Of a stretch of 64,000 nt of DNA, positions 2,978-61,968 are shown piece after piece. The notes below the pieces were generated by a model that did not search any database, was not told the origin of the DNA, and was given only the letters and a program-made list of their open reading frames with translations. A program made the translations under genes and the position numbers. Position 1 is the first letter of the stretch, and the number at the start of each line of letters is the position of its first letter. The stretch is from Croceicoccus mobilis (GTDB lineage Bacteria; Pseudomonadota; Alphaproteobacteria; Sphingomonadales; Sphingomonadaceae): contig NZ_LYWZ01000022.1 of NCBI RefSeq assembly GCF_001661965.1, forward strand, positions 310,001-374,000, given 5' to 3'.

Positions 2978-3541
2978 ATGAAAATGCCGAAGCCTAAATT
3001 GCCTTTGCCCAAGGTTGGATCGAAACCGCTGACTCCCGATCGGAAGTCACGCTCTATAATGAATCGCCTGCCACCCTATGAGTTTCAGCTGACCTCAAGA
3101 CCAGAACTGTCAGAAGCCTTGCTGGCCAACAGTCAAGTTATTGAAACGATCAAGCTACAAGAGGTGATTTCCATCCTCTGGCAGCCAAAGTCCATGAATG
3201 CGGAAGAGCGTGACGCCAAACTCATCAAGGCCTTAGATTTGCTAAAAAGCATCGCCCCAACAGATGGAATAGAGGCCATGCTCGCGCTACAGATGCTTGG
3301 CACACACGAGGCCGCGCTCACTTGCCTAAATAGGGCAACGCGAGAAGATTTACCGATGGCTTCTCGTGATCGAGCACTTTCTGATTCTCAGAAACTGATG
3401 ACCCTTTACCTCAAACAGGTAAACGCCATTAATAAGCATCGCGCGGGGGGCCAGCAAAAGATGGTCGTTGAATATGTGAATGTCGAAAATGGTGGGCAAG
3501 CGATTGTCGGAAATCTTTCTGCCTGCGCCAACAAGAAATGA
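2978..3541 (+). CDS. Hypothetical protein ending in a GGQAIVGN motif, partner of the following gene
   Basis: About 187 residues, mostly helical, with a positively charged N terminus (KMPKPKLPLPKVG) and the C-terminal motif YVNVENGGQAIVGNLSACAN. A similar ending occurs in alphaproteobacterial hypothetical proteins encoded next to small Gly/Asn-rich proteins like the one that follows, and the ATGA overlap here shows the two are coupled. Function is unknown; the pair is usually seen in accessory DNA. The start is uncertain: a TTG at 2948, the ATG at 2978 and an ATG at 3059 are all possible and none has a good ribosome-binding site. Confidence 0.6.
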   Translation: MKMPKPKLPLPKVGSKPLTPDRKSRSIMNRLPPYEFQLTSRPELSEALLANSQVIETIKLQEVISILWQPKSMNAEERDAKLIKALDLLKSIAPTDGIEAMLALQMLGTHEAALTCLNRATREDLPMASRDRALSDSQKLMTLYLKQVNAINKHRAGGQQKMVVEYVNVENGGQAIVGNLSACANKK

Positions 3542-3813
3542 AAAGCACACACAAGCGCAATTTAACGGGTTTAGGAAACGCTCTGCGCTGCGGGGCTAAA
3601 ACCCGGACCGGGCGCGAATGCAGATCCCCTGCTGTACGGGGTAAGAAACGCTGCCGTATGCATGGAGGATCAAGGGGAAGCGGGGCACCTGCCGGAAACA
3701 AGAGTGCGCTCAGAACCGGCCTTCATACTAAAGAGGCAATTGAGCTAAGAAAGCATATTGCAAAAATTTTGCGGGAATCTGAACTGATTATTGATTATAT
3801 TTATCAAAAATGA
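3538..3813 (+). CDS. Small basic protein with Cys/His cluster and GAPAGNKSAL motif (often mislabelled glucan biosynthesis protein)
   Basis: A 91-residue protein with a putative zinc-binding N-terminal half (CGAKTRTGRECRSPAV then KKRCRMHGG), the characteristic HGG-x-GAP-x-GN-x-AL segment, and a C-terminal helix starting TKEAIELRKHI. Proteins of this kind are common as small accessory genes in rhizobia and sphingomonads and are sometimes annotated as glucans biosynthesis protein without evidence. The Cys/His spacing suggests nucleic-acid binding, which is inference. It is translationally coupled (ATGA) to the preceding hypothetical gene. Confidence 0.65.
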   Translation: MKSTHKRNLTGLGNALRCGAKTRTGRECRSPAVRGKKRCRMHGGSRGSGAPAGNKSALRTGLHTKEAIELRKHIAKILRESELIIDYIYQK

Positions 3814-4142
3814 TTTCATTTTTCATAATACTATATCGGCATATTTTTTATATAGAAATCCCGATTCGCCTTGTGAATGACGCACGCACGACAAGGTGAG
3901 CATTTCATTTGACGAGAAGAGCGTCGTTTTTTATTGCCAGGGGGTAGATTGGCTGCAGTTGGGTGTGCGTCGCTGTAAGTATATCGAACAGCCTCCAAGC
4001 CCACCTTGGTTCGAGCAATAAAGTTTTCGAATGGTGCATTAAGCAGTCGCCCTCCGGACTCATTCTTATGGACTTCAAACCTGATTTTTACCAAGCAATA
4101 GGATGAACCAATTTCCACATGCCCAAGGGTTTCCGCCAAACA
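3814..4142. other. Gene-free stretch, AT-rich
   Basis: About 330 bp with no supported gene. It starts AT-rich (runs of T and A just after 3814) and contains no clear hairpin with a T tract. A minus-strand open frame from 4148 to 3831 has no start context or recognisable motif and was not accepted. Confidence 0.4.
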
Positions 4143-45000: not shown

Positions 45001-45873
45001 ATGGAGAGGCCAGACGCAGAAAACAGCACGAGCGGCCTGCGCGGCGATTACTCGCAGGCGCGCGCCGACTATACCGTACCCCAGGACCACGCCAGCTATG
45101 GCGAGGCTGAGCATGACCGCTGGCGCCGCCTTTACGCGCGGCAAGTCGCTTTGGCCGATCGCCACGCAGCCCGCGCCTATCGCGAAGGGCTGAAGCGGCT
45201 GGATTGCGCGGATGGCATTCCCGATTTCGCCGATGCCAGCGCGATCCTGACCAAGGCGACCGGCTGGCAAATCGTGGCCGTTCCGGGTTTCATCCCGGAC
45301 GAGGTTTTCTTCGACCACCTGGCCAACCGGCGCTTTCCCGTCACGCGCTGGATCCGCGAAGAGGATGAACTCGACTATCTGGTCGAGCCCGACGTCTTCC
45401 ACGATTTCTTCGGCCATGTGCCGATGCTGCTGGACCCGACCTTCGCCGATTTCATGGCGGCCTATGGCGCAGCGGGCGCACGGGCGCGGGAAATGGACGC
45501 GGTCGACATGCTGGCACGCATCTATTGGTACACCGTCGAATTCGGCCTGATCGAGGAAGAGGGCGAGATCCGCGCCTATGGCGCAGGCATCGTCTCTTCC
45601 GCGGGTGAGACCGTGTTTTCGACCACGGACCCCGATGTCATCCGGCTGGCATTCGATCCCGTCCGCATCATGCGCACCGCATACCGGATCGACGACTTCC
45701 AGAGCACCTATTTCGTGATCGACGATCTTGACCAGCTGATGGGCGGTCTCGTCGATCTGGATTTCGGGCCGATCTACCAATCTTACCGCGAGGAAGAACC
45801 CTTCCCGCCCGACGAGATCCAGCCCGGCGACACGCGAATTTCACTGAACAAAACCGAGGATGCCACCCAATGA
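45001..45873 (+). CDS. phhA: Phenylalanine 4-monooxygenase
   Basis: A 290-residue pterin- and iron-dependent hydroxylase converting phenylalanine to tyrosine. The iron ligands are seen in [18 protein letters not shown] (two His four residues apart) and the later Glu in [36 protein letters not shown] matches the bacterial single-domain form. Start: ATG 45001. It is first in the operon and overlaps hpd by four bases. Confidence 0.95.
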
Positions 45874-46970
45874 CCGACCTCTTCGAAAACCCCATCGGCC
45901 TCGACGGCTTTGAATTCGTCGAATTCTCCGCGCCCGAAAAGGGCATGCTGGAACCTGTGTTCCAGGCCATGGGCTTTACCCATGTCGCCAACCATCGGTC
46001 CAAGGACGTGCAGCTCTGGCGGCAGGGCGACATCAACCTCATCACCAATTACGAACCCGGCTCGCCTGCATGGTTCTTCAGCCGCGAACACGGGCCCAGC
46101 GCCTGCGGCATGGCGTTTCGCGTGAAGGACGCGCGCCGCGCCTATGAGGAACTGCTCGACCGGTCGGCTGAGCCGGTACAGCTGGAAACCGGCCCGATGG
46201 AACTGCGCCTGCCGGCCATCCGCGGCATCGGCAACGCCATCATCTATCTGGTTGATCGCTATGAGGGCGGCGCAAACGGCGATCTGTCGATCTATGACAT
46301 TGATTTCGAATATCTGCCCGGCGTCGACAAGCACCCCAAGGGCGCAGGCTTTGAGCGCATCGATCACCTGACGCATAATGTCTATGGCGGCCGCATGGCC
46401 TATTGGGCCGATTATTACGAAAAGCTCTTCAACTTCCGCGAGATCCGCTATTTCGATATCAAGGGCGAATATACCGGCCTGACGTCAAAGGCACTGACCG
46501 CACCCGACGGCAAGATCCGCATCCCGTTGAATGAGGAAGGCGAAGGCGGCAAGGGCCAGATCGAGGAATTCCTGCGCGAATTCAACGGCGAGGGCATCCA
46601 GCACATCGCCTTTATCTGTGACGATCTCGTTTCGGCATGGGATTCGCTGAAAAAGACCGGCGTCCCCTTCATGACCGCCCCGCCCGAAACCTATTACGAG
46701 ATGCTGACCGAGCGGCTGCCCGGCCATGGCGAGGATACCGAGGCATTGAAAGCCCGCGGCATCCTCCTCGACGGCACGACCGAAAGCGGGAGCCCCCGCC
46801 TCCTCCTGCAGATCTTTGCCGAAGCGAATGTCGGCCCCGTCTTCTTCGAATTCATCCAGAGGAAGGGCGATGACGGTTTCGGCGAGGGCAATTTCAAGGC
46901 GCTGTTCGAAAGCATGGAGCGTGACCAGGTTCGCCGCGGTACGCTGAAGGTGGACGAAAAGGCCGACTGA
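45870..46970 (+). CDS. hpd: 4-hydroxyphenylpyruvate dioxygenase
   Basis: A 366-residue non-haem iron enzyme turning 4-hydroxyphenylpyruvate into homogentisate. It has two VOC domains. The iron ligands are His in [15 protein letters not shown], His in [17 protein letters not shown] and Glu in [19 protein letters not shown]. The start is in an ATGA overlap with phhA. The tyrosine aminotransferase needed between PhhA and this step is not in the window. Confidence 0.96.
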
Positions 46971-46990: not shown

Positions 46991-48277
46991 ATGAGCAATT
47001 ACCAGACCGGCTTCGGCAACCATTTCGCCACCGAGGCGGTAAAAGGCGCGCTGCCCGTGGGCCGCAACAGCCCGCAGCGCCCGGCCTACGGCCTCTATGC
47101 CGAGCAGTTCTCGACCACGGCATTCACCGCGCCACGGGCCGAGAACCGCCGGTCGTGGCTCTATCGCCTGCGCCCCGCTGCCAGCCATCCGCCGTTCGAG
47201 CCCTTCGACATGGCGCCCCGTTTGATCAGCGCGCCTCTGCACGGCGGAGCGGTAAACCCCAATCGGCTGCGGTGGAGCCCGCTTGCCATACCGGACGCGC
47301 CGACCGACTGGCTGGATGGGCTGACCAGCTATGCCGTGAATGGGGATGTCGGGACCGGTGCGGGAATCGGCGTCCATCTTTATGCCGCGAATTGTTCGAT
47401 GAACCGGCGTGCCGCGCAGTTTTCCGACGGTGAACTTTTGATCGTGCCGCAGCAGGGGGCGCTGGCCATCATTACCGAACTTGGCCGCATGGACGTGCCG
47501 CCCGGGCATATCGCGCTGATACCGCGCGGGATGCGCTTTTCCGTCACGCTCGATGGTCCGTCGCGCGGCTATGTCTGCGAGAATTACGGCGCGCCTTTCC
47601 GCCTGCCCGACCTTGGTCCGATCGGGTCCAACGGGCTGGCCAATCCGCGCGACTTCGAAACGCCGGTAGCCTGGTTCGAGGATCGCGATGGCGAATACGA
47701 GCTGATCCAGAAATTTCAGGGCCATCTCTGGCGCACGGTTCTCGATCATTCCCCCTTCGACGTGGTCGCCTGGCATGGGAACAGCGCGCCATGCCGCTTC
47801 GATCTCGCTCGTTTCAACACCATCGGCACCGTCAGTTTCGACCATCCCGATCCGTCGATCTTCACCGTGCTGACCAGTCCTTCCGACCAACCGGGCACCG
47901 CGAACTGCGATTTCGTGATTTTCCCGCCGCGCTGGATGGTCGCGGAAGACACGTTCCGCCCGCCATGGTTCCACCGCAATGTCATGAGCGAGTTCATGGG
48001 GCTGATCCATGGCATCTATGACGCGAAGGAAGGCGGCGGTTTCGAACCGGGCGGAGCGAGCCTTCACAACCAGATGAATGGCCACGGACCCGATGCCGAC
48101 AGCGCGAAAAAGGCGATGGAGGCCAAGCTGGCTCCGGTGAAGCTGGACGATACGCTGGCCTTCATGTTCGAAAGCCGTTGGGTGCTGCGCCCTGCCCCGA
48201 CAGCCATGTCGGCCCCCGAACTGCAAGGCGACTACGATGATTGCTGGTCGGGCTTTCCGAAAGCGGAGCTGCCCTGA
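46991..48277 (+). CDS. hmgA: Homogentisate 1,2-dioxygenase
   Basis: A 428-residue iron enzyme opening the homogentisate ring to maleylacetoacetate. The N terminus is [19 protein letters not shown]; the iron site is in [19 protein letters not shown] and [20 protein letters not shown] (His, Glu, His). Length is normal. It follows hpd by 20 bp. Maleylacetoacetate isomerase and fumarylacetoacetase genes are not adjacent, so the pathway is completed elsewhere. It converges with the Crp-type gene. Confidence 0.96.
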
Positions 48278-50267: not shown

Positions 50268-50675
50268 TCAGCCTCTCGGCACTTCTGGATTTTGGAGGCT
50301 TTCCAGCAGATAGTTGTCCAGGATCGATATCACGTTGTCGTCGTCATCGAGAAACAAGACCGGTCCGAAGTTAGAGAAGTAAAGCTCGGTGTACTCGGTG
50401 AAAGTCGTCTCCTCATGAACGACTCCCAGCGGTTCATAGCCATAAGTGCCCTCCACCGCGCTTCCCATGCGGTAGTCCATGCGCCCTTTGACGACGTAGT
50501 ATTCGCCTGCTCCGTAATGCTTGTGGCGGGCAAAGCTGGCACCTTTCTGTCCCCTGATCAGGACAGTCCAGCGACCTGTCTCGTTGCTGCTGAAAAGGAC
50601 TTGGATGTCGATCCCCTCGGCCAGCTGCAGCCATTTGCGATCTTCCTTGGGCACGAGGCATTCGTCGATGCTCAT
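50268..50675 (-). CDS. Cupin protein of the 2,4'-dihydroxyacetophenone dioxygenase type
   Basis: A 135-residue single-domain cupin. Metal ligands are likely in GASFARHKHYGAGEYYVVKG (His, His, Glu) and later His in GVVHEETTFTEYTELYFSN. The close family is that of 2,4'-dihydroxyacetophenone dioxygenase, which cleaves the C-C bond of an aromatic alpha-hydroxyketone; assignment to this exact reaction is inference. Start: ATG 50675 with GGAGAAGAG upstream. It follows the TonB receptor by 28 bp in the same operon. Confidence 0.75.
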   Translation of the reverse strand: MSIDECLVPKEDRKWLQLAEGIDIQVLFSSNETGRWTVLIRGQKGASFARHKHYGAGEYYVVKGRMDYRMGSAVEGTYGYEPLGVVHEETTFTEYTELYFSNFGPVLFLDDDDNVISILDNYLLESLQNPEVPRG

Positions 50676-50703
50676 CTCTCTTCTCCAGAAAATATTGTGC
50701 TGA

Positions 50704-52932
50704 TCAAAAGCGCGCGATGGCCTCAACGCCCCAGGTGGGACGTTCGCCGTAGTAAAGCGGGATGAAGCCGAAATCGCGTAGGTCGGTCGCGTCCATCAGG
50801 AACTTCTCGCCGAACACGTTCTTGGCCCATGCGGCAAGTTCCCAGCCACTGTCTTTTGCGGCCAGCTTGGCGCGCAGATTGACGAGACCGTGGCCATCGC
50901 CGCTCGACACTTGCTCGTCCTCACCATTGTTGAAGTACCGCTTGCCGGTGTAGTTGTATTCGGCACGCAGTCCCGCCTCGAGATCCGAGGAAATCGGAAA
51001 GGTATAGGCCGCGAACGATGACATCGTGAACTTCGGCGCATTGGGCAGGCGATTGCCCGAAAAGTCGCGCGGCTGGCCGGTCACCGGATCGACCGCGCCC
51101 GAGGTGTAGTTCTTGTATGTCGCGTCGAGCAGGCCGAAGTTGAGCCCCAGCGAAAGCGGTTCGACCGGTTCGGCAAGGATCTCGACTTCCAGCCCCTTCA
51201 CCGTCGCATCGGCCGCGTTATCGAGGCCCAGCGTCGGCACGCCATTGCCCTGCTGGTTCACGCTCAGTACCTGCAGGTCGGTATAGTCGTAGTAGAACGC
51301 GCTGGCGTTAAATCGCACGCGACGGTCGAACAGGGTCGATTTAATCCCGATTTCGTAGGACGTCAGATATTCGGGTTCGACCTTGGTGCGTTCGGCCACA
51401 CTGGTGATGATGCCAATGTTGAATGTGCCGGATTTGAACCCCTTGGTGACAGAGGCGTAGGCCATCACATCATCGGTAACGTCGTAGTCCGCAGCCAGTC
51501 GCCAGGAGAACGCCTTGAAGATATCCGAAAGCTCGGCATAGGGCACCAGATCGATCTCAGGCCCATTGGGTACATCGTCATCGAAATATCCGGGGACCAG
51601 AAACGCGCGATGCGTTACATCGACTTTATCCCAGGTATAACGCCCGCCGATCGTGAGGCCCAAGCGGTCGGTAACACCGTAGCTGACTTGTCCGAACACG
51701 GCGTAGCTCTTGTTGTCACGCGTCGCATCGGTCCGCAGCGGAATTGCCCCCTGGGCAAAGGTAAGCTCCCCGATGAGGTCCGCCGCAGAGACGTTCTCAA
51801 GGTTTTCGTCGAAATAAAAGAGCCCTACGATGGCATCGAGGCCGTCTTCCGAGTAAGATAACTGGAATTCTTGGCTGAACTGCTCGGTTTCGGTCTTATT
51901 CGTGATTTCATCGATCCGCAGGGGGCTGCCGTCCACATCGACGCGGTTGTCGACTTCGGTGTCGTCATATCCGGTAATCGATTTGAGCGTCAGTCCGCCG
52001 CCTAGCCCGATCGTGACGTTGAGCGAAGCCCAGGCGTTGTCTGAATAGTTGCGGCTGTCGCCATTGAAGTTCAGCACGGACCAGTCGTCGGGTGCGGGAT
52101 CGGAATAGCCGAAGATGTTCGCGCCGCCCGCTGTGCCCAGCGGTTTGGGGTGGAAATAGTCGGACCTGTCGCGCCCCGTTCCGCCCGATAGGCGCAGGTC
52201 GAGATCGGAATGCGGATTGTAGCGCAGGATCGCCCGTACTGCCGCCTCGTCCACGTCGATCGCCCTGTCGCCGGTGAACAGGTTAACGCGTTCGCCATCG
52301 CGGCGGCGCACGATGCCCGATGCGCGCATCGAAAGCCCTTCGGCCAGCGGCATGGTCACCGCGCCTTCGGCCTCGAACAGGTCGAACCTACCGTAACCCG
52401 CCCGTGCATAGCCTTCGAAGTAGTCGCCCGGCAGGCGGGAGATGTAGTGAATGGCGCCGCCCGTCGTGTTCTTGCCGAACAGTGTCCCCTGCGGCCCGCG
52501 CAGCACCTCGATCCTGTCTACGTCGAACAGCGCAAACATCTGACTGCCTGTCGCCGCCACCACGACATCGTCACGATAGATCGAGATCGGCCCGACGGAC
52601 GATGAATTGAAATCGTTGTTGCCGACGCCTCGGATGAAGATGTTCGGAACGCCACCGAAAGTCTTGATCTCGAGGTTCGGGACATTGTCGCCAATGGCTA
52701 GGCTGTTGGTCAGCCCCGCCTCCGCAATCTGGTCACCGCCTAGTGCGGAGACCGCAATCGGCACGTCCTGAAGGCTCTGCTCGCGGCGCTGCGCCGTCAC
52801 GACGATCTCGGCAATGCCGCGTTGCTGGACCTGTGCGTCGTCTTCGTCCTGCGCAAAAGCGGGCGTCGTCAACGCGCTGGCGCACATCAAGGCTGCGGCT
52901 GCTTTCAGCGTCGCGGTGCCGGTCTGTTTCAT
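50704..52932 (-). CDS. TonB-dependent outer-membrane receptor
   Basis: A 742-residue receptor: signal peptide (AAAALMCASALTTPAFAQ), TonB box region (IAEIVVTAQRREQSLQDVPI), plug domain with FDVDRIEVLRGPQGTLFGKN, TTGGAIHYISR, and a 22-strand barrel ending in the aromatic terminal strand (WGVEAIARF). This sphingomonad type imports small organic substrates or siderophores. It is divergent from the AraC regulator and shares an operon with the cupin, so it probably imports their substrate. RBS GGGGAGAG precedes the ATG. Confidence 0.93.
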   Translation of the reverse strand: MKQTGTATLKAAAALMCASALTTPAFAQDEDDAQVQQRGIAEIVVTAQRREQSLQDVPIAVSALGGDQIAEAGLTNSLAIGDNVPNLEIKTFGGVPNIFIRGVGNNDFNSSSVGPISIYRDDVVVAATGSQMFALFDVDRIEVLRGPQGTLFGKNTTGGAIHYISRLPGDYFEGYARAGYGRFDLFEAEGAVTMPLAEGLSMRASGIVRRRDGERVNLFTGDRAIDVDEAAVRAILRYNPHSDLDLRLSGGTGRDRSDYFHPKPLGTAGGANIFGYSDPAPDDWSVLNFNGDSRNYSDNAWASLNVTIGLGGGLTLKSITGYDDTEVDNRVDVDGSPLRIDEITNKTETEQFSQEFQLSYSEDGLDAIVGLFYFDENLENVSAADLIGELTFAQGAIPLRTDATRDNKSYAVFGQVSYGVTDRLGLTIGGRYTWDKVDVTHRAFLVPGYFDDDVPNGPEIDLVPYAELSDIFKAFSWRLAADYDVTDDVMAYASVTKGFKSGTFNIGIITSVAERTKVEPEYLTSYEIGIKSTLFDRRVRFNASAFYYDYTDLQVLSVNQQGNGVPTLGLDNAADATVKGLEVEILAEPVEPLSLGLNFGLLDATYKNYTSGAVDPVTGQPRDFSGNRLPNAPKFTMSSFAAYTFPISSDLEAGLRAEYNYTGKRYFNNGEDEQVSSGDGHGLVNLRAKLAAKDSGWELAAWAKNVFGEKFLMDATDLRDFGFIPLYYGERPTWGVEAIARF

Positions 52933-53188
52933 TATTCTCTCCCCTGCGAACGCGGCCGTTATCGTCGGCCTGCGCGGCTTTTTGGCAGGTTTCGTCTATA
53001 ATACCGGCCGGGACATTGCTTGACCGCCAGCGACCAAAGCAAAGCATTTGCGTGAACAGGGCGAAATGCCCGAAAACTCCGCGCTTTTGTGCAGGAGTGA
53101 ACGGCTTTCGAGACCACAGCGAACCCGGACCTCATGCCGCTGGCGCACGTGATTTTCATCCCCTACAGTCAGAGTGGGAGAAAATTCG

Positions 53189-54154
53189 ATGCAGGAACCG
53201 CAAGCAGAGACGTGGACAACACGCGGGCTGCCGGGAAGGCAGCAATTCCGCAATTTCCAGGAAGTGTTCGAACGAACGCATTTCCATTGGGACCTGAAGG
53301 GCGATTGTGCCGACAAGTATCACGGCTCGATCGTGCGGCGGCATTTCGACGATTATGTCTTCACGCATATAGAGGCCGACCCGCTGGCCGGGCGCCGCAC
53401 GGCGGACGATATCAAGCGCGGTGACCAGCCCTACTTCTGCCTGCTCTATCTGGAAGCGGGGCATAGCCACCTTGCCCAGGGAGCGAACCAGTGCGAGCTG
53501 ACGCCCGGTTCGATCGCGCTTTGGGACAGCACGCGGCCCGCGTTCTTCGATGCGAAGTCGACGCTCCACCAGTTCTCACTGCTTATTCCCCACCGCACGG
53601 CCAAGCTGGCTCTGCCGGGGATCGAGGACCTGTGCGGCATGCAGGTGCGCGGTGATCGCGGGATGGGCGCGCTGTTGAAGTCGCACCTCAAGCAATTGCA
53701 TTCGACTATAGACAGTATCGATGCGCGTGACAGGCCGGCTGTCCTTCGCGCAACAGTGGAGATGGCGGCCGCGACGTTCCGCCCGACGACAGAGGCGTTA
53801 TCGGGTACCGCGTTCCGCCGCTCGCTATTGGCCCGCGTGCAGGAATACGTGATCGCCAATCTTGCCGATCCCGACCTTGGGCCGCAGACAATCGCGGCGG
53901 CCTTCCGTTTCAGCCCGCGGTACTTGCACAGACTGTTCGCCGAGTTCGACATGACCGTTTGTGAATGGATCCGGCAACGCCGGCTTGGCCGCGCGCGTGT
54001 CGACATGGAGACGCGTGGCCTCGACGCCCTGTCAATCACACAGATCGCCATGAAGAACGGCTTTTCGGACAGTTCGCACTTCTCGCGAAGCTTTCGGGCA
54101 GAGTTCGGATCCAGCCCCCGCGAATGGCGCGAGACATCACGGACGCAGAGCTGA
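53189..54154 (+). CDS. AraC-family transcriptional regulator
   Basis: A 321-residue activator with an N-terminal AraC_binding_2-type ligand domain (residues ~35-190, including HLAQGANQCELTPGSIALWD) and a C-terminal double HTH (DLGPQTIAAAFRFSPRYLHR, then ALSITQIAMKNGFSDSSHFS and FRAEFGSSPREW). Regulators of this build control aromatic and ketone catabolic operons. Start: ATG 53189 behind GGGAGA. The 256-bp gap to the divergent TonB receptor should hold both promoters; it likely controls both directions. Confidence 0.9.
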   Translation: MQEPQAETWTTRGLPGRQQFRNFQEVFERTHFHWDLKGDCADKYHGSIVRRHFDDYVFTHIEADPLAGRRTADDIKRGDQPYFCLLYLEAGHSHLAQGANQCELTPGSIALWDSTRPAFFDAKSTLHQFSLLIPHRTAKLALPGIEDLCGMQVRGDRGMGALLKSHLKQLHSTIDSIDARDRPAVLRATVEMAAATFRPTTEALSGTAFRRSLLARVQEYVIANLADPDLGPQTIAAAFRFSPRYLHRLFAEFDMTVCEWIRQRRLGRARVDMETRGLDALSITQIAMKNGFSDSSHFSRSFRAEFGSSPREWRETSRTQS

Positions 54155-54285
54155 ACGGTAACGGCAGTTCGCCCATCGTCATGTTTTGAGGCCCGCGCCG
54201 ACAAGCACGAAAGCCACCGATCGCGCAGAAAGCCATGATGCAGATTCCGCAAGACAGCGGAACGTTTCGTGGAAAGGGCGCGGCA

Positions 54286-55041
54286 ATGGCTGCAAGGCTG
54301 GCGGGAAAGACCACCCTCGTAACAGGGTCGGCACAAGGCATAGGGCAGGCAATCGCTGCCCATTTCGAAAGCGAAGGCGCTGAAGTCTGGCGCGGCGATC
54401 TTCAGCCGATGGACGGAGAACGCGCCCTGCACCTCGACGTTTCGAATGAAGAATCGTGGGCGAAAGCGATCGCTGAAATAAAGGCCGGGTCGGGCAAGCT
54501 CGACATCCTCGTCAACAATGCCGGTATCGAGTGGGAAAAGCCGCTGCAGGACATTCCGCTTGGCGACTGGCGCAAGGTCATGTCCGTCAATGTCGATGGC
54601 ATCTTTCTCGGCTGCCGTACGGCTAAGCCCCTGATGGAGCGCCGCGTCGAAGGGCGGGCATCAGTCATCAACATATCGTCTGTCGCAGGGATCGTCGGGT
54701 TTCCCGACCAGGTGGCCTACAACACGTCGAAAGGCGCAGTGCGGCACCTCACTAAGAGCCTTGCCGTCGAATGGGCCGCGCACGGCACCCCGATCCGCTG
54801 CAATTCGATCCACCCCGGCTGCATCAACACGCCCATGCTGGCCGCAGCGGGTGAAAAATGGGTCGCTGCTGGCCTGATTGAAGGCGACAGCCTGATGGAA
54901 GCGATGGGCGCGATGTGTCCGCTGAACGAGGTCGGCGACCCGTCCGACATCGCTTGGGGCGCGGTCTATCTCGCCAGCGATGAGGCAAAGTTCGTCACCG
55001 GCCTCGAACTCGTGATCGATGGGGGGTTCATTGCGCGATGA
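54286..55041 (+). CDS. Short-chain dehydrogenase/reductase
   Basis: A classical SDR of 251 residues: TGSAQGIGQAIAAHF for cofactor binding, ILVNNAGIEW, catalytic Ser in INISSVAGIVG, Tyr and Lys in VAYNTSKGAVRH. It would oxidise or reduce a hydroxyl/keto group of the substrate handled by the following enzymes, for example an alpha-hydroxyketone to a diketone. The start at 54286 (AAAGGG upstream) is preferred over the more distant ATG at 54235. It overlaps the E1-alpha gene by four bases. Confidence 0.9.
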   Translation: MAARLAGKTTLVTGSAQGIGQAIAAHFESEGAEVWRGDLQPMDGERALHLDVSNEESWAKAIAEIKAGSGKLDILVNNAGIEWEKPLQDIPLGDWRKVMSVNVDGIFLGCRTAKPLMERRVEGRASVINISSVAGIVGFPDQVAYNTSKGAVRHLTKSLAVEWAAHGTPIRCNSIHPGCINTPMLAAAGEKWVAAGLIEGDSLMEAMGAMCPLNEVGDPSDIAWGAVYLASDEAKFVTGLELVIDGGFIAR

Positions 55042-56039
55042 GCAAGACCAATCAGCCGCACCGTCTCTGGATGTACGAGAATATGGTGAAGTCGCGCGCT
55101 TTCGAGGACGCGATCAAGCCCGCTTATCTTGAAGGTAAGACACCGCGCTTCAATATGGCAAGAGGACCGATTCCGGGCGAAATGCACTTGTCCGATGGGC
55201 AGGAGCCGTGCGCAGTCGGCGTCTGCGCGCACTTGCGTGAAAGTGACACGGTTACGGCCACTCACCGCCCGCACCATGCAGCGATTGCCAAGGGCGTCGA
55301 CCTTGATCGCATGGCAGCAGAGATCTTCGGGCGTGATACGGGCCTTTCGGGCGGGCGCGGCGGGCACATGCACCTGTTCGACGCGTCGGTGAACTTTGCC
55401 TGTTCGGGTATCATCGCACAGGGCATGGGTCCGGCATTGGGCGCAGCCATGGCCGCGAAACTGCGAGGTAGCGACGCGGTAGCAGTTGCCTACATCGGCG
55501 AGGGGGCGGCCAATCAGGGCGCATTCCACGAAGTCATGAACCTCGCGTCCGTCTGGGGTGCACCGCTTGTCATCGTGATCGAGGACAATGGCTACGGCGT
55601 GTCGGTGTCAAAGGCATCGTGCACTGCCGTATCCCGCAATGCCGACCGCGCCGCCGCTTATGCCATGCCCGGCATCCACATTGCCGGCAACGATCCCGAC
55701 GCGATCTACGACGCCGCAGGAGAAGCCATCGCGCGCGCGCGCCGCGGCGAAGGACCCAGCCTGATCGAGATCGAGACCAGCCGCCTCGAAGGGCACTTCA
55801 TGGGGGACCAGGAAGCTTATCGCCCCGAAGGCGAGAAGGACCGGCTGAAAGCCATGGACCCGATCCCGCGATACCGTGAACGCCTGCTTGCGGACGGGAT
55901 CGATGCTGCCGAACTGGATGCCTGCGAGAAGCACGCGCAGCAGGCTGTCGAAACCGCATTCGCCTTTGCGCGCGGCTCGGCCCTGCCCGATCCGGCCAGC
56001 GCCTTTACCAGCGTTTTCGTCGAGAGGACCACGGCATGA
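55038..56039 (+). CDS. ThDP-dependent dehydrogenase E1 component, alpha subunit
   Basis: A 333-residue E1-alpha of the acetoin/pyruvate dehydrogenase class. Features are FNMARGPIPGEMHLSDGQEP, HRPHHAAIAKG and SGGRGGHMHLFD, which resemble acetoin dehydrogenase AcoA more than pyruvate dehydrogenase. The ThDP/Mg motif reads GEGAANQG followed by IEDNGYG: the usual GDG Asp is Glu, the second Asn and the Tyr are kept. It decarboxylates or cleaves an alpha-keto type substrate and passes the acyl group to lipoate. It overlaps the SDR and E1-beta genes (ATGA). Confidence 0.92.
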   Translation: MSKTNQPHRLWMYENMVKSRAFEDAIKPAYLEGKTPRFNMARGPIPGEMHLSDGQEPCAVGVCAHLRESDTVTATHRPHHAAIAKGVDLDRMAAEIFGRDTGLSGGRGGHMHLFDASVNFACSGIIAQGMGPALGAAMAAKLRGSDAVAVAYIGEGAANQGAFHEVMNLASVWGAPLVIVIEDNGYGVSVSKASCTAVSRNADRAAAYAMPGIHIAGNDPDAIYDAAGEAIARARRGEGPSLIEIETSRLEGHFMGDQEAYRPEGEKDRLKAMDPIPRYRERLLADGIDAAELDACEKHAQQAVETAFAFARGSALPDPASAFTSVFVERTTA

Positions 56040-57064
56040 ACACCGCCACTGCAATCCGCAAGCAGACGATCGCCAAGGCCATGTCCGAAGCGCTTGCCAG
56101 CGAAATGGAGCGCGACCCCGGCGTCGTCGTGCTGGGCGAGGACATCGGCAAGCTGGGCGGCGTGTTCGGCAACACCGGCGGTCTTCTCGAACGGTTCGGC
56201 ACCGAGCGCGTGTTCGACACCCCGATTTCCGAAACCGGCTTTATCGGCGCGGCGGTCGGCATGGCAGGGGCCGGAATGCGCCCCGTCGTCGAATTGATGT
56301 TCGTCGATTTCTTCGGCGTTTGCATGGACGCGATCTACAACCTCGCTGCGAAACAGGCCTACTTTTCGGGTGGACAGGTTTCGTGCCCGATGGTGCTGAT
56401 GACATCGGTCGGCGGGGGCTACGGCGATGCGGGACAGCATTCGCAGTGCCTGTACGCCACGTTCGGGCACTTGCCGGGGATGAAGGTCGTCATCCCGTCC
56501 AATGCACACGATGCCAAGGGATTGATGCTAGCCGCGATCCGAGACGAAAATCCGGTCGTCTTCATGTTCCACAAGGCGCTGCAGGGCATGGGCTGGCTCG
56601 GTACCGTTGCGGGGTCGATCACCGATGTGCCCGACGGCGAATATGAAGTTCCGATCGGCAAGGCAGGCGTGGCGCGTGAAGGGACCGACATCACGCTCGT
56701 CGGCCTTGGCATCACCGTGCACCACTGCCTCGCAGCCGCAGATGCCCTGTCGCGTGAAGACGGTGTCGAAGCGGAAGTCATCGACATCAGAACGATCGCG
56801 CCCCTGGATCGGGAGACCATCCTCGCCTCGGTCCGCAAGACCGGGCGCGTGGTCGTGGTCGACGACGATTACCTGTCCTGCGGTCTTGCCGGAGAAGTCA
56901 TCGCCTCGATCGCCGAGGCAGGCATCCCCCTCGCCTCGCCGCCGCAGCGGATATCGCATCCCGACATTCCCATCCCGTTCTCGCCAGCATTGGAGCATGC
57001 CGTCTTGCCGAACGCCGAAATGACCCTTGCCGCCGCTCGCCAGTCGATCGGAGAACGCGCATGA
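56036..57064 (+). CDS. ThDP-dependent dehydrogenase E1 component, beta subunit
   Basis: A 342-residue E1-beta. It has the conserved EDIGKLGGVFGNTGGL start, the ThDP-activating Glu in DTPISETGFIGAAVGMAG, the substrate-channel segment VSCPMVLMTSVGGGYGDAGQ, and the C-terminal transketolase domain (GLAGEVIASIAEAGIPLASP). With the alpha subunit it forms a heterotetramer. Its start overlaps E1-alpha and its stop overlaps the lipoyl protein, so the three are made together. Confidence 0.93.
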   Translation: MNTATAIRKQTIAKAMSEALASEMERDPGVVVLGEDIGKLGGVFGNTGGLLERFGTERVFDTPISETGFIGAAVGMAGAGMRPVVELMFVDFFGVCMDAIYNLAAKQAYFSGGQVSCPMVLMTSVGGGYGDAGQHSQCLYATFGHLPGMKVVIPSNAHDAKGLMLAAIRDENPVVFMFHKALQGMGWLGTVAGSITDVPDGEYEVPIGKAGVAREGTDITLVGLGITVHHCLAAADALSREDGVEAEVIDIRTIAPLDRETILASVRKTGRVVVVDDDYLSCGLAGEVIASIAEAGIPLASPPQRISHPDIPIPFSPALEHAVLPNAEMTLAAARQSIGERA

Positions 57065-57291
57065 CCGCGGTCGTCGTACCCGCCGACTTGTGGGACGACG
57101 GCTCGACCGCCGTTCTGGGCACCTGGCTCTTCTCCGATGGAGAGCAGGTCACCGAAGGCGCAATCATTGCCGAAGTCATGCGCGACAAGGCCAGCTACGA
57201 GATCGCCGCACCGGCGTCGGGCACGCTGCGCACACATGTTGCGGAGGACGACGAGATCGCGCTGGGAGCCGCGATCGGCACGATCGAGTAA
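57061..57291 (+). CDS. Free-standing lipoyl carrier protein
   Basis: A 76-residue protein consisting only of a lipoyl/biotinyl domain: strands before and after the hairpin EVMRDKASYEIAAPASG, with Lys 43 in the RDKA position used for lipoylation. There is no peripheral-subunit-binding domain and no acyltransferase domain, and no such gene follows. Length is that of a single lipoyl domain, so it is not a truncated E2 with visible remains downstream. It is coupled to E1-beta by ATGA and lies five bases before the ligase gene. It would act as acyl carrier for E1. Confidence 0.9.
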   Translation: MTAVVVPADLWDDGSTAVLGTWLFSDGEQVTEGAIIAEVMRDKASYEIAAPASGTLRTHVAEDDEIALGAAIGTIE

Positions 57292-57296
57292 CCGAC

Positions 57297-58028
57297 ATGG
57301 ACGCGAAGGACCGGACCCGGTGCGATGCGCTGTTCCACGCTCTTGGCGCAGAGCTGCGCTGCATCGTAGCTGATGCGACTATTCACGATACCGTGGCCGA
57401 CCCGCAGGCTGCTGTCGATGAGGATATCGTGATGGCGCGGCAGGCGCTAGGCGAGAGCGCAGCCATGAAGCGGGCAAGGCTTTGGCGAAACAGGCCTTGC
57501 CTTGTCGTGCCGCGACGTCATGCGCACAGCCCCGCTATTGGAGAGGCGCTTGCGCTTGCCGGGATGCCGGTGGCCTTCAGAAAGTCCGGCGGACGCTGTG
57601 TCGCGCATGGACCGCATGTCGCAAACCTTACCCTTGTCCTGACCGGCGACCATGTGACGCTTGGCGCGCCCTATCGGCAGCTGCTTGACCTGCTGGAGCG
57701 CCTATTCGCTCCCATGGGAATTGTCGGAGAGGCACGCAGCGTTCCAGGGTCCCATTGCGACGGACGGCATAATTTCGCTGTCGGTGGGCGAAAGCTGGCC
57801 GGTACGGCAGCGTTTGTCATGCAGCGTGGCGAGCGGCAGGCAGTTCTTGCCCATGCCTCGATATCGCTGCACTTCACCGCAAGCGACCTGGCTGCAATCA
57901 TGCGGGTCGAAAGCGCTCTCGGTATCGACGCGGACTACAGCGCACAGAGCCATGTCGGCCTGAGCGAACTGGTGCGCATGACTGCCTTCGCTGGCAACGG
58001 AGCCGACAGGGAGACCTGCCTTGCCTGA
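57297..58028 (+). CDS. LplA-like lipoate-protein ligase
   Basis: A 243-residue member of the lipoate/biotin ligase fold. Marks are AFRKSGGRCVAHGPHVANLT (the RxxGGGxVxH-type ligand loop, with Gly-Arg-Cys variation) and CDGRHNFAVGGRKLAGTAAF, where the Lys corresponds to the catalytic Lys of LplA. The C-terminal part is short. Sequence is divergent from housekeeping LplA, but the place directly after the lipoyl gene suggests that it attaches lipoate (or a related cofactor) to that carrier. The stop overlaps the start of the acyl-CoA synthetase. Confidence 0.82.
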   Translation: MDAKDRTRCDALFHALGAELRCIVADATIHDTVADPQAAVDEDIVMARQALGESAAMKRARLWRNRPCLVVPRRHAHSPAIGEALALAGMPVAFRKSGGRCVAHGPHVANLTLVLTGDHVTLGAPYRQLLDLLERLFAPMGIVGEARSVPGSHCDGRHNFAVGGRKLAGTAAFVMQRGERQAVLAHASISLHFTASDLAAIMRVESALGIDADYSAQSHVGLSELVRMTAFAGNGADRETCLA

Positions 58029-59625
58029 TATTCCGACCGTCATTGCCGACCGCCTGGCGCATATCGTCTCGCTCTACGATGGCGATGATCTATCGCTGCA
58101 TGAACTGCTGGTCGCCTCGCACGAGCCGGGCGACGTCGCCTTTCGCTTTATCGGAGGCGAGGACATTACCTACGCCCGGTTAAATAGGTTATCGGCCGCG
58201 ATCGCTGGCGGATTGGCAGCACGAGGGATCGGACACGGCGACTGCGTGGCCGTGCTGATGGGCAAGAGCCCGGAAATGGTCGCCACGCTGGTCGCGGCAT
58301 GGCGGCTGGGCGCCGTGGTCATGCCGATTTTCACCGCCTTCAGCACGCCTGCGGTCACGCACCGGTTGCAAGGCGGCAAGGCGAAAGCCGTGATCGCCGA
58401 TGTCGGTCAGGTCGAAAAGCTCGACCCCGCGATCATCGCGGAACTCGGGCTCTCTACCACCGTGTTCGTGAATGGCAGGCACGGAGAGTTCTCCAGCCTC
58501 GCCTCGATCATCGGCGAGCGTTCGCCCGCGCCGGTTGCTGCCCGCCTTCCCGCTGCCGCGCCGATGATCCGCATCTTCACATCGGGCACGACCGGTAAAC
58601 CGAAAGGCGTCGATCTGCCGCTGCGCGCTCTGGCCAGCATTCGCGCCTATGCCGAATTCGGGCTCTTCATCGAACCCGGCGATACATATTGGTGCGCGGC
58701 CGATCCGGGCTGGGCCTATGGCCTCTACTACGCAATCGTCGCACCGCTCCTGATTGGCCAGCGGTCCATCCTGCTGCCCGGCGGCTTCGATCCGCAGCGC
58801 ACCTTGTCTATCCTTGCCGAAGAGGGCGTTACCAATTTCGCCGCCGCGCCAACGATCTACCGCGCCCTACGCACCTGCGAGCCATCCGGTTTGTTGCAAG
58901 TGACCAAGGCTTCAAGCGCCGGGGAACCACTTGGTGCGGACCTCGATGCATGGGCGCTGGAAACGTTCGGAACGCGCATCCACGACCACTATGGCCAGAC
59001 CGAGGCAGGGATGATGGTAAACAACCATCACCACCCCTTGTTGCGCAACGAGGCGAAAGCCGGGTCGATGGGCCGTACGATGCCCGGATGGCATGCCGTA
59101 ATACTGGACGAGCAGGGCGAGCCTGCTCCTTCGGGCGAAACCGGTAAACTGGCAATGAGCCTCGACCATAGCCCCCTAGCGTGGTTCGCCGGATACCTAG
59201 ACGCGCCCAAGGCCACGCAAGAGAAATTCTCGCCCTGTGGTCGATATTATCTCACCGGCGATGCTGCCCGCATGGATGCGGACGGCCTGATCACTTTCTA
59301 TGCCCGCGACGACGACATCGTGCTGATGGCAGGTTATCGTATCGGCCCGCAGGAGGTTGAAAGCGTGTTGAACGATCACCCGAAGGTCGCCGCCTCCGCC
59401 GCCTTTGGCGTTCCGGACGAAGTCATGGGGGAACGGCTCGAAGCCTGTGTCGTCCTCACCGATACCTCGGATGCGCCCTCGACCGTCGAACTGCAGCAGT
59501 GGGTGAAGGACCGTTTCGCGCGCCACGCCTATCCGCGTTCGATCCATTTCATTGCCGAGATGCCCCTGACACCCAGCGGCAAGATCAAGCGTTTCGCATT
59601 GCGAAAGCGTTTCGGCGCCACCTGA
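58021..59625 (+). CDS. AMP-forming acyl-CoA synthetase
   Basis: A 534-residue ANL enzyme forming an acyl-CoA from a carboxylic acid, ATP and CoA. Motifs: IFTSGTTGKPKGVDLPLRA (P-loop), DHYGQTEAGMMVNNHHHP, YLTGDAARMDADGLITFYAR, and the C-terminal catalytic Lys in LTPSGKIKRFALRK. The family lies near acetyl/propionyl and medium-chain synthetases; the substrate is not known. It begins at TTG overlapping the ligase stop by eight bases, thus is the last gene of the cluster. It could activate the acid released from the lipoyl step. Confidence 0.92.
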   Translation: MPDIPTVIADRLAHIVSLYDGDDLSLHELLVASHEPGDVAFRFIGGEDITYARLNRLSAAIAGGLAARGIGHGDCVAVLMGKSPEMVATLVAAWRLGAVVMPIFTAFSTPAVTHRLQGGKAKAVIADVGQVEKLDPAIIAELGLSTTVFVNGRHGEFSSLASIIGERSPAPVAARLPAAAPMIRIFTSGTTGKPKGVDLPLRALASIRAYAEFGLFIEPGDTYWCAADPGWAYGLYYAIVAPLLIGQRSILLPGGFDPQRTLSILAEEGVTNFAAAPTIYRALRTCEPSGLLQVTKASSAGEPLGADLDAWALETFGTRIHDHYGQTEAGMMVNNHHHPLLRNEAKAGSMGRTMPGWHAVILDEQGEPAPSGETGKLAMSLDHSPLAWFAGYLDAPKATQEKFSPCGRYYLTGDAARMDADGLITFYARDDDIVLMAGYRIGPQEVESVLNDHPKVAASAAFGVPDEVMGERLEACVVLTDTSDAPSTVELQQWVKDRFARHAYPRSIHFIAEMPLTPSGKIKRFALRKRFGAT

Positions 59626-60372: not shown

Positions 60373-61968
60373 TCAATCGCTGTCCGCGATCCGGCGAAGT
60401 CTGACCGCCATGTAGGGCCGCTGCGGCAAAGCGATCGAACCGGTTTTCGGTGCATGTAGTTCATACTCGTTGCCACGAGACAACTCGATCACGCCTTCGA
60501 CCTCGGTGACAGTCATGTTCCAGCTATCGATGATATCCGCCTTGTAAGAACCGGCATCGCTGTCTTCTCGGGCGGGCAAGGCGATCGTCCACTTTGCCGG
60601 GCTCGTCTCGCCGAAATAGACGAGGTAATAATTCCCTTTCCTGCCCGCGACGTGATAGCCCCACCACGGCTGGATCGCGTCAATGCCGGGCGCTGGCCCC
60701 TCTTCCATGATACGTTTCAGGAAGGCGAGCCGCGGCGCGCTATCACCTTGCAAGGTACCGCCTTGCCCCAACCATGAATGATCGGGGTTGCCGCTGGAAG
60801 CATAGGTCTCGCTGTGGCCAACATAGGTGCCGCCCATCAGCCCGTGCCAGAACCGCTCGACCATCTTTTCAGCTGACAGATTGCCCCAGCGCTTGTCGAT
60901 GTCGCCCTCATAGACAACCTCGTCGAAGATGACCGGCTTTTCCGCGAAAGCACGATGAAGTTCGGCACGGATGCTGTCGTCAACGGCGGCACCGTTCTGG
61001 ATACTGGCGTGTGTGATCCACGGCTTGCGATGGTCGTAATAGCGCCGGATATTGTGGATTGATCGCAGCCGGTCGTGCGGATCAGCGTCAACCAATATGC
61101 CGAACAGATGGTCCCAGTCTTCGTCCGATTTCGTCTTGATGAGGTCGAACTCATTCGCCATCGACCACCAGACATTTCTGAAAGCACCAAAGCGTGCGGC
61201 GACATAACGGACGTACGCTTCGTCATCCTCGCGAGACATGTCCGAATAGCCACGTGAGGGATCATAGGGCTGGTAAAGAATGACATCGGCCTCGATGCCA
61301 AGATCGCCAAGGCGCCGGATCCGATCCTCAAAACGGCGGAAATAGGCAGGATTGAAACGAGCCGGATCCCAGTCCTTTGGCCCGCTTCCCGTCCGCAGGA
61401 AAGGATCGGTGGCGGCAGAGGCTACATTGGGGAACACCAGCATGCGCATCTTGTTGAACGGCGCTTCGGCGAGCGTTGCCAACGTCTGCCGACATTTCTC
61501 CTCGGACTGGAGCGCCCATGAATAGCAGGTCGTGCCGATCTGGCGGAACGGGGTGCCATCTGCGTGTACGAAATGGAACCCATCGTTGCTGACCCGGACC
61601 GGGCCATGGTTGCCCCTCTGCGGCTCTGTTGCGGCGAATTCGCCGATCAGGCCGGACAAGGCATTTGCATTGCTTTGACTAGTCCATCCCCACTTCCCCG
61701 TTTCGGGAGGGCTGAAGCGGACACGATAGACCCCGTCCCCGTCGTAGAAGCCCGGTACTTCGATGGCCTGCCCACCATTCTCGAAGAGAATCGAAAGCCT
61801 CGTCTCCCGAAATGGATTACCGCTGCCCGGACCGTCCAGCGCGATTTCAAACAGCCCCCATCGTTCGACTTCACGCGGCGGGTGCATTCTGGAAAAGGCA
61901 GGTCTGGCAAGGCCAGAGACCCCCAAGGCCATGGCATTGGCGAAAACGGCCCTTCGGCTAATGGTCAC
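60373..61968 (-). CDS. DUF5060/DUF4038/DUF5605 glycoside hydrolase with Tat-type signal
   Basis: A 531-residue protein with a twin-arginine-like signal (SRRAVFANAMALGVSGLARP), an N-terminal DUF5060 beta-domain (residues ~35-115, EVPGFYDGDGVYRVRFSPPE), a TIM-barrel of the DUF4038/apiosidase-like type (IGTTCYSWALQSEE, NVWWSMANEFDLIKTKSDED with acid residues, FDEVVYEGDIDKRWGNL) and a C-terminal DUF5605 domain (YKADIIDSWNMTVTEVEGVI, LPQRPYMAVRLRR). Relatives act on pectin side chains. It is last in a minus-strand run with an aldo/keto reductase and GH28. Confidence 0.86.
   Translation of the reverse strand: MTISRRAVFANAMALGVSGLARPAFSRMHPPREVERWGLFEIALDGPGSGNPFRETRLSILFENGGQAIEVPGFYDGDGVYRVRFSPPETGKWGWTSQSNANALSGLIGEFAATEPQRGNHGPVRVSNDGFHFVHADGTPFRQIGTTCYSWALQSEEKCRQTLATLAEAPFNKMRMLVFPNVASAATDPFLRTGSGPKDWDPARFNPAYFRRFEDRIRRLGDLGIEADVILYQPYDPSRGYSDMSREDDEAYVRYVAARFGAFRNVWWSMANEFDLIKTKSDEDWDHLFGILVDADPHDRLRSIHNIRRYYDHRKPWITHASIQNGAAVDDSIRAELHRAFAEKPVIFDEVVYEGDIDKRWGNLSAEKMVERFWHGLMGGTYVGHSETYASSGNPDHSWLGQGGTLQGDSAPRLAFLKRIMEEGPAPGIDAIQPWWGYHVAGRKGNYYLVYFGETSPAKWTIALPAREDSDAGSYKADIIDSWNMTVTEVEGVIELSRGNEYELHAPKTGSIALPQRPYMAVRLRRIADSD

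Follow-up and report, generated by a model that had tools for sequence, protein, structure and literature searches.

An E2-less E1 operon that encodes its own lipoyl carrier in Croceicoccus mobilis, a member of a wide family with divided E2

Complexes of the E1-E2-E3 type are the textbook case of a tethered lipoyl arm that swings between active sites, and acetoin dehydrogenase systems are encoded by the AcoABC/L gene set. Here, an operon of Croceicoccus mobilis is described that contains the genes for both E1 subunits, for a free-standing lipoyl carrier (LIP) and for a modifying enzyme with an LplA/LipL-type fold (LIPL), without a gene for E2 or E3. It occupies positions 54286-59625 of the analysed stretch of 64,000 nucleotides (the window). 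Like acetoin dehydrogenase, the operon combines a heterodimeric E1 dependent on thiamine diphosphate (ThDP; domains E1_dh, Transket_pyr and Transketolase_C) with a lipoyl carrier, and the surroundings of some relatives also recall that system: a sigma-54 activator, alcohol and acetaldehyde dehydrogenases, and genes resembling acetate/propionate-CoA ligases. Unlike that system, it has no E2 (AcoC) gene, its lipoyl domain is free and it brings its own LipL-like enzyme; moreover, the acetoin-dehydrogenase models among the matches all score below their cut-offs. With the pyruvate and branched-chain 2-oxoacid dehydrogenase complexes the operon has the E1-alpha and E1-beta families in common, the nearest solved E1-beta being that of pyruvate dehydrogenase (3duf/1w85), whereas the E2 core, the subunit-binding domain and E3 are lacking from the cluster. 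The third 2-oxoacid dehydrogenase operon of Haloferax volcanii, a subject of van Ooyen and Soppa in 2007, is said to hold E1 genes and an orphan lipoate domain without E2 or E3; it is archaeal, and is likened here by gene content, not by sequence.

The carrier and its modifying enzyme have described counterparts of their own. LbpA of the sHdr sulfur oxidation is likewise a single-domain lipoate protein with its modifying enzyme encoded alongside (PMC6067878, in its available text). However, LbpA is GcvH-like, functions in sulfur oxidation and is served by an ATP-dependent ligase, whereas the window encodes a predicted Cys/Lys transferase and an E1 partner. The LipL of Firmicutes (available text of PMC10332631 and PMC5049849) is similar to LIPL in predicted fold, in its Cys/Lys pattern and as the top match among hidden Markov models and PDB entries. 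In contrast to it, LIPL stays below the family cut-off, is proteobacterial and adjoins one carrier. The gene set as a whole was not found described in full-text literature searches, which were judged by title and the start of the abstract and had most subscription journals outside their coverage. What appears to be new is a family with split E2 whose small E2 gene (mini-E2) can be missing, a LipL-like enzyme encoded together with the arm, and a pattern in the residues flanking the lipoyl lysine.

The operon is composed as follows:

54286-55041, plus strand: dehydrogenase of the short-chain dehydrogenase/reductase (SDR) type (Pfam adh_short_C2, 1.5e-57); orthologues in related islands; ATG at 54235 is an alternative start
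55038-56039, plus strand: E1-alpha, ThDP-dependent dehydrogenase (Pfam E1_dh, 2.3e-66)
56036-57064, plus strand: E1-beta (Pfam Transket_pyr and Transketolase_C; NCBIfam PRK09212, 324 bits, cut-off 321)
57061-57291, plus strand: LIP, free-standing lipoyl carrier of 76 residues with its lysine in MRDKAS (Pfam Biotin_lipoyl, 2.6e-9)
57292-57296: gap of 5 bp, the site of the mini-E2 gene (about 225 residues) in most relatives
57297-58028, plus strand: LIPL, LipL-like, predicted Cys/Lys lipoyl/octanoyl transferase of 243 residues with C154 and K166 (Pfam LplA-B_cat, 4.5e-16)
58021-59625, plus strand: acyl-CoA synthetase (ANL), acetate--CoA-ligase-like, TTG start (Pfam AMP-binding; NCBIfam acetate--CoA ligase, 339 bits, below the cut-off of 729)

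All six genes lie on one strand. An earlier first-pass annotation, made from the DNA letters alone, had proposed this set (SDR, E1-alpha, E1-beta, a lipoyl-only protein, an LplA-fold enzyme and an acyl-CoA synthetase), and each member was confirmed by Pfam. Its statement that the genes are packed with ATGA-type overlaps holds for the first three of the five junctions, but not for the last two, where LIP and LIPL are separated by the 5-bp gap and LIPL and ANL overlap by 8 bp. The claimed absence of E2 catalytic, subunit-binding and E3 domains was borne out: Pfam found no 2-oxoacid_dh, E3-binding or E3 domain among the six operon proteins, none of the eight matches of PF00198 (E2) in the C. mobilis genome falls inside the window, and an E2 profile had no match in the six frames of the window. 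An E1 operon without E2 and E3, with its own lipoyl carrier and an LplA/LipL-fold modifying enzyme, is thereby confirmed as real.

Within a wide family of E1 modules in which E2 is divided into LIP and a mini-E2 gene, the operon represents the form without E2. The family set was assembled from a scan with an E1-beta alignment (the best 80 among the matches listed) and from the loci of further genomes; after removal of L122 (the same as L039) and L041 (the same as L052), it comprises 90 loci. The usual gene order is E1-alpha, E1-beta, LIP, mini-E2 (about 225 residues, without a lipoyl domain) and LIPL. In the Phaeobacter cluster, the five genes are named by NCBI 'E1 component subunit alpha', 'alpha-ketoacid dehydrogenase subunit beta', 'lipoyl domain-containing protein', '2-oxo acid dehydrogenase subunit E2' and 'lipoate--protein ligase'. 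In the window, E1-alpha and E1-beta are likewise followed by a free LIP of the usual length of about 76 residues, and there is no separate mini-E2. The first-pass annotation had named as one ground against its own reading that related clusters might always contain a separate E2. This turned out to be half the case: a mini-E2 follows the lipoyl gene in 66 of the 90 loci (63 with LIPL, 3 without) and is missing from 24 (18 with LIPL, 6 with neither gene), two of which reach the end of their contig soon after LIP (L068, 794 bp; L095, 1488 bp). The His motif of the mini-E2, which we take to be catalytic, is kept in 78 of 79 matches (77 by pattern, DHRAIDG of L085 by eye; repeat fetches included).

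Some individual members deviate. The sole exception among the 79 is the mini-E2 of L038 (4632-5342), from a Croceicoccus relative, where Pro takes the place of His (DPRAIDG). At L110 in Roseovarius amoyensis, a transposase-like frame (3332-3880) overlaps the end of LIP, and by eye the module seems to be cut by an insertion. A haloarchaeal plasmid (L130, 5946-9090) has the split order E1-alpha, E1-beta, lipoyl protein and E2, with no ligase gene listed alongside.

The first-pass annotation had also proposed a search of genomes for neighbourhoods lacking E2 and E3. This was carried out, and E2-less E1-LIP modules were found to recur in several groups. For the E1-alpha and E1-beta trees, the 90 loci were reduced to 71 rows by leaving out 18 near-copies and L063 (without an E1-alpha sequence); 13 rows were added later to give 84, among them L145, which is identical to L079. 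These are quick trees with support from the Shimodaira-Hasegawa-like approximate likelihood ratio test (SH-aLRT) only, and they contain several long rows, whose well-supported ('starred') branches deserve less trust. On the 84-row tree (32 E2-less, 52 E2-bearing rows), the presence of mini-E2 changes nine times, seven of which are forced by starred branches. The E2-less groups include the Croceicoccus trio and Sphingomonadaceae, Dongia with a member of the Rhodospirillaceae, Parvularcula, Rhodobacteraceae and others. The E2-less state is thus apparently recurrent across bacteria, by either loss or gain of mini-E2. Modules of this kind are rare under strict E-value limits, with 15 in 396 genomes of the order and 5 in 385 of the class; the latter five are all E2-less and were all already in the locus set.

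The operon is part of a larger conserved unit. Together with it, a divergently transcribed cupin and receptor pair and a regulator (50268-54154) form one island:

50268-50675, minus strand: ChrR-type cupin, conserved island member (Pfam Cupin_7, 5.8e-36); operon-adjacent orthologues in congeners and Sphingomonadaceae
50704-52932, minus strand: TonB-dependent receptor (Pfam), probably for substrate uptake; identity 92-95% in congeners and 44-69% in other E2-less islands
53189-54154, plus strand: AraC/FeaR-like regulator (Pfam HTH_18 and AraC_binding_2; NCBIfam FeaR, 158.8 bits, below the cut-off of 199), conserved; reading frame open from GTG 53174

The same succession of cupin, TonB-dependent receptor, AraC regulator, SDR, both E1 genes, LIP and LIPL is found in a metagenome-assembled genome of Phenylobacterium (L061), with a mini-E2 between LIP and LIPL. 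The remaining pathway therefore seems indifferent to whether an E2 is encoded in cis. In L152 (4531-12466) and L153 (3742-11678), an E2-less E1-LIP module and an E2-bearing E1-LIP-E2 module even stand side by side in convergent orientation; the gene between them encodes a protein of about 860 residues that resembles a large ATPase regulator.

The best NCBIfam matches of LIP are the lipoyl domains of E2s, and the protein has both the Biotin_lipoyl domain and the motif lysine, which occurs in every carrier of the 84-row tree. The residue following this lysine (K+1) differs between the two kinds of module. In E2-less carriers it is Ser or Thr in 24 of 32 rows, Ala in 7 (window included) and Val in one (L095, at a contig end). 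In the 52 E2-bearing rows it is Val or Ile (41) or Ala (11), and never Ser or Thr. A later order-wide sample of 17 loci contributed 12 new ones (4 repeats; L145 identical to L079), all of which fit the pattern (four E2-bearing with Val or Ile, eight E2-less with Ser or Thr), several being close kin of earlier rows. Ser or Thr goes in the same direction in about 5.3 of 7 phylogenetically independent pairs of the 84-row tree, and in none does it go the opposite way. Several points count against the pattern. The sign test on these pairs is weak, with a median p of 0.06; the looser definition 'not Val or Ile' gives 0.03, but was picked afterwards; and the first tree of 71 rows gave 0.125 for Ser or Thr and 0.06 for 'Ser or Thr, or Ala-Ser'. 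Furthermore, L073 and L095 do not follow the pattern; L073 (Halomonas faecis) has the motif of E2-bearing modules and looks like a recent loss of E2. Overall, it is suggestive that the flanking residues track the absence of mini-E2. The housekeeping arms of C. mobilis, translated at their known places, read DKVA, AKIT, DKAT and DKAT, and the likeness of the window's DKAS to these is suggestive as well. The flank signature may reveal which carriers have a private E2.

E2 and E3 are available elsewhere in the C. mobilis genome, which encodes four full-length E2s (lipoyl domain in frame) and two E3s above the family cut-off. The mini-E2 profile was run against a total of 17 genomes that carry E2-less clusters (completeness figures exist for 7 of them). 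Frame length proved a poor guide to a housekeeping E2, as the mini-E2 of one congener (G203) sits in a frame of 485 residues; hence, all 48 E2 matches of 15 genomes (all except G203 and C. mobilis itself, G000) were checked for an in-frame lipoyl domain. Such a domain lies upstream in 47 of the 48, which are therefore full-length E2s; the remaining match (G598:C265) is in a frame of 1256 residues. With the mini-E2 profile, no free-standing mini-E2 was found in 15 of the 17 genomes. The exceptions are G203, with the mini-E2 of its second cluster (C4), and C. mobilis (C9:3863, with its own lipoyl protein). A hidden E2 of the AcoC (alpha/beta-hydrolase) type was rejected, since the AcoC model NF011457 stays below its cut-off at all 23 places in the C. 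mobilis genome; the best hydrolase-only match is C22:13297. Two further E2-like places occur in this genome. One, on the minus strand of C16 (L011, 6274-6888), is a single frame with an SDR start and an incomplete E2 catalytic end, which resembles a chimeric remnant; the other (C9:128995; L010, 7002-7331) is a partial E2 fragment in a frame of 148 residues.

Clues to the substrate come from neighbouring genes. Among loci with enough flank, 8 of 15 E2-less ones have an ANL, whatever its type, no more than 7 kb from E1-beta, versus 4 of 54 E2-bearing ones. This favours a link between ANL and the absence of E2; however, the tally is not independent, because the E2-less loci with an ANL belong mostly to one order. 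The window's own ANL type (at least 45% identity) was seen only in the Croceicoccus trio and L154 (47%). The idea that its orthologues occur in all Sphingomonadaceae islands was rejected, as those belong to another type (ANL_G076). This other ANL, 53-60% identical to the PrpE/Acs-like ANL of L025, is found in seven of the nine other E2-less islands of Sphingomonadales (L045, L046, L047, L051, L157, L159 and L160; not L156 and L158), and the PrpE/Acs-like type also occurs in the E2-bearing L025, L038 and L121. As clusters with a mini-E2 can have an ANL as well, the ANL need not stand in for E2. In L038, an ANL (59% identical to the PrpE/Acs-like one) and the acetaldehyde dehydrogenase ExaC (912.5 bits, cut-off 900) are located beside the module. 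The module of Stutzerimonas (L083) is surrounded by a sigma-54 activator, a Zn-dependent alcohol dehydrogenase, and GMC and pyrroloquinoline quinone (PQQ) dehydrogenases. Both layouts fit what would be expected of a route from an alcohol or diol to an acyloin, its cleavage into acyl-lipoyl and aldehyde, and conversion of the latter via the acid to acyl-CoA. A role of the ANL in processing the aldehyde half is therefore more likely than one in place of E2.

As to the substrate, the lipoylation of LIP and its donor, the fate of the acyl group and an E2 acting in trans, we infer the following route. The E1 would cleave an acyloin or diketone, and the free lipoyl carrier would be discharged in trans by a housekeeping E2 and E3; we give this about an even chance (roughly 0.5). 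The substrate would enter through the TonB-dependent receptor. Oxidation by the SDR would then produce an alpha-hydroxyketone or alpha-diketone from a secondary alcohol or diol, as the enzyme's family and the relatives suggest. Subsequently, E1-alpha/beta with ThDP, whose domains are present, would cleave this compound and reductively acylate lipoyl-LIP, as is expected from the family. LIPL, with its Cys/Lys pair and predicted fold, would load LIP with a lipoyl or octanoyl group; the donor would be GcvH or a different lipoyl domain. The acyl-dihydrolipoyl-LIP would diffuse to a housekeeping E2, yielding acyl-CoA, and the arm would be re-oxidized by a housekeeping E3. Finally, the aldehyde half would be converted to an acid and activated by the ANL, as suggested by L038, where an acetaldehyde dehydrogenase adjoins a PrpE/Acs-like gene. 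With L061 having the same island plus a mini-E2, a cis-encoded E2 seems to be optional for one and the same pathway. The well-known complex would apparently operate with a borrowed or an absent centre, and the family makes it testable whether a lipoyl carrier can serve several complexes as a diffusible acyl carrier.

This route has to face several counterpoints. The use of a housekeeping E2 by the free carrier is deduced because alternatives are absent, and no aldehyde dehydrogenase is encoded inside the window operon. In addition, NCBIfam favours pyruvate dehydrogenase: E1-beta passes PRK09212, a pyruvate dehydrogenase E1-beta subfamily model (324 bits, cut-off 321), while E1-alpha stays below its cut-off (267 of 394). 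As E1-beta passes this cut-off, a 2-oxoacid is a possible substrate.

Alternatively, the E1 and the free carrier might work without any E2, the acyl group being moved to another acceptor or hydrolysed and recovered by the ANL, in a state reached repeatedly and with a changed flank; this we regard as possible but unlikely. In the form in which the acyl group of LIP is hydrolysed or passed to a non-CoA acceptor and the ANL re-activates the acid, it is a rather improbable reading. It would agree with the 15 of 17 genomes lacking a free-standing mini-E2, with the carrier sequence changing along with E2 absence, and with the ANL being near more E2-less than E2-bearing modules, including the window operon and (as the other type) seven of nine Sphingomonadales islands. 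On the other hand, the second ANL type is shared with E2-bearing loci, the E2-less Dongia loci L040, L042 and L052 have no ANL within 7 kb, the ANL-bearing E2-less loci come mostly from one order, and Pfam found no thioesterase among the six operon proteins. The first-pass annotation had left two fates side by side, release of the acid with re-activation by the acyl-CoA synthetase, or transfer to a housekeeping E2. The former retains the higher frequency of ANL near E2-less modules in its favour, but is weakened by the ANL of some mini-E2-bearing relatives; from the sequence comparisons, the latter appears to be the better choice.

The enzyme that would load LIP had been called an LplA-like ligase. 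The LplA/LipL fold was borne out, whereas a LipL-type Cys/Lys transferase dedicated to LIP is more probable than a ligase. Cys154 and Lys166, 12 residues apart, are kept in all 12 aligned members, and the pair was found in 85 of 85 LIPL matches, a count that includes two repeats (by pattern in 84 and by eye in L102). Their roles are presumably those of the corresponding residues of LipL. LipL-type models are matched by 12 of 12 members and give the top score for the window member; the lplA model is also matched by 11 of 12. In the profile search, the nearest structures are 2p5i (1.4e-33) and 2p0l (2e-26), with Cys aligned to Cys, while the two ligase alignments printed show Leu (5iby) and a gap (1vqz) at this site. 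2p5i and 2p0l also come first in a Foldseek search with an AlphaFold2 model of LIPL (mean predicted local distance difference test score, pLDDT, 87.1). An LplA would be expected to have a Cys-free site and an accessory domain; LIPL has the Cys and consists, with 243 residues, of the catalytic domain alone. In three Dongia genomes the module adjoins glycine-cleavage genes (GcvH family confirmed in L040, P-protein families in L040 and L041), and LipL takes lipoyl or octanoyl groups from GcvH and passes them to the arms of E2 (available text of PMC10332631 and PMC5049849). Together, the Cys/Lys pair, the LipL-like nearest structures and the Dongia neighbourhood lead to the prediction of a transferase dedicated to LIP. 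C. mobilis has one other gene of the LplA/B fold.

Two observations argue against this assignment: LplA structures follow closely in the fold search (1.9e-13 vs 1.6e-11), and LIPL reaches 45.8 of 400 bits on the best LipL NCBIfam model, far below all curated cut-offs. That the protein is a true ATP-dependent lipoate ligase, like the single-domain enzymes serving LbpA, is kept as a rival because a bona fide ligase of this kind, dedicated to one carrier, has been published for sulfur oxidisers (PMC6067878, available text). The identical fold and the lplA matches agree with it; the conserved Cys, aligned with that of 2p5i and 2p0l rather than with the Leu or gap of the ligases, and the better LipL scores of the window member make it doubtful. 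A LipL-type enzyme here would point to such transferases in Proteobacteria, in contrast to a survey in which, as far as its available text goes, Proteobacteria have LipB only and never LipM (PMC10332631). By eye, the LIPL of L039 (8674-9822) has a C-terminal extension that resembles small module-adjacent proteins in L121 (13715-14074) and L095 (5862-6215).

A dedicated E2 acting in trans would be a further solution, and in C. mobilis the candidate is the lipoyl and mini-E2 pair at C9:3486-4546. The pair reaches 285 bits with the mini-E2 profile (in whose building it was included), a stretch of 12 kb around it yielded no E1, and in G203 a mini-E2 exists in the genome's own second cluster. This is nevertheless quite unlikely. 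The pair is not conserved, as G197 carries the operon but not the pair, and 15 of the 17 E2-less genomes lack it too; its mini-E2 is divergent (28% identity to the first sequence in the family alignment, versus 40-47% for other members) and has its own lipoyl protein; and another E1-alpha (C9:102334) shares the contig.

Finally, 13 other congener genomes were searched with LIPL. The operon is present in two of them (G203 and G197) in identical gene order, with identities of 96-97% for E1-beta, 87-91% for LIP, 78% for LIPL and 91-93% for ANL; G204 has a more distant cluster that bears a mini-E2. Across the three Croceicoccus genomes, the ratio of non-synonymous to synonymous substitution rates (dN/dS) is 0.05-0.10 for the TonB-dependent receptor, the AraC regulator, SDR, E1-alpha, E1-beta and ANL, 0.11-0.17 for LIP and 0.25-0.29 for LIPL, and no internal stops were found in the genes. 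The common order and low dN/dS mean that the operon is maintained and not decaying. A recent truncation or a decaying pathway that has lost its E2, a possibility the first-pass annotation had raised, was rejected on this conserved order and dN/dS as very improbable: mini-E2 does sit at exactly the LIP/LIPL junction in most relatives and L073 of H. faecis does resemble a recent loss, but entire clades are E2-less on the E1 tree and purifying selection acts in the congeners.

Elsewhere in the window, the frame at 46991-48277 resembles, by eye, homogentisate dioxygenase and the preceding one (45870-46970) 4-hydroxyphenylpyruvate dioxygenase. Downstream of the operon, 60373-61968 encodes an Apiosidase-like glycoside hydrolase with DUF5060/DUF5605, adjoined by an aldo/keto reductase (Pfam).

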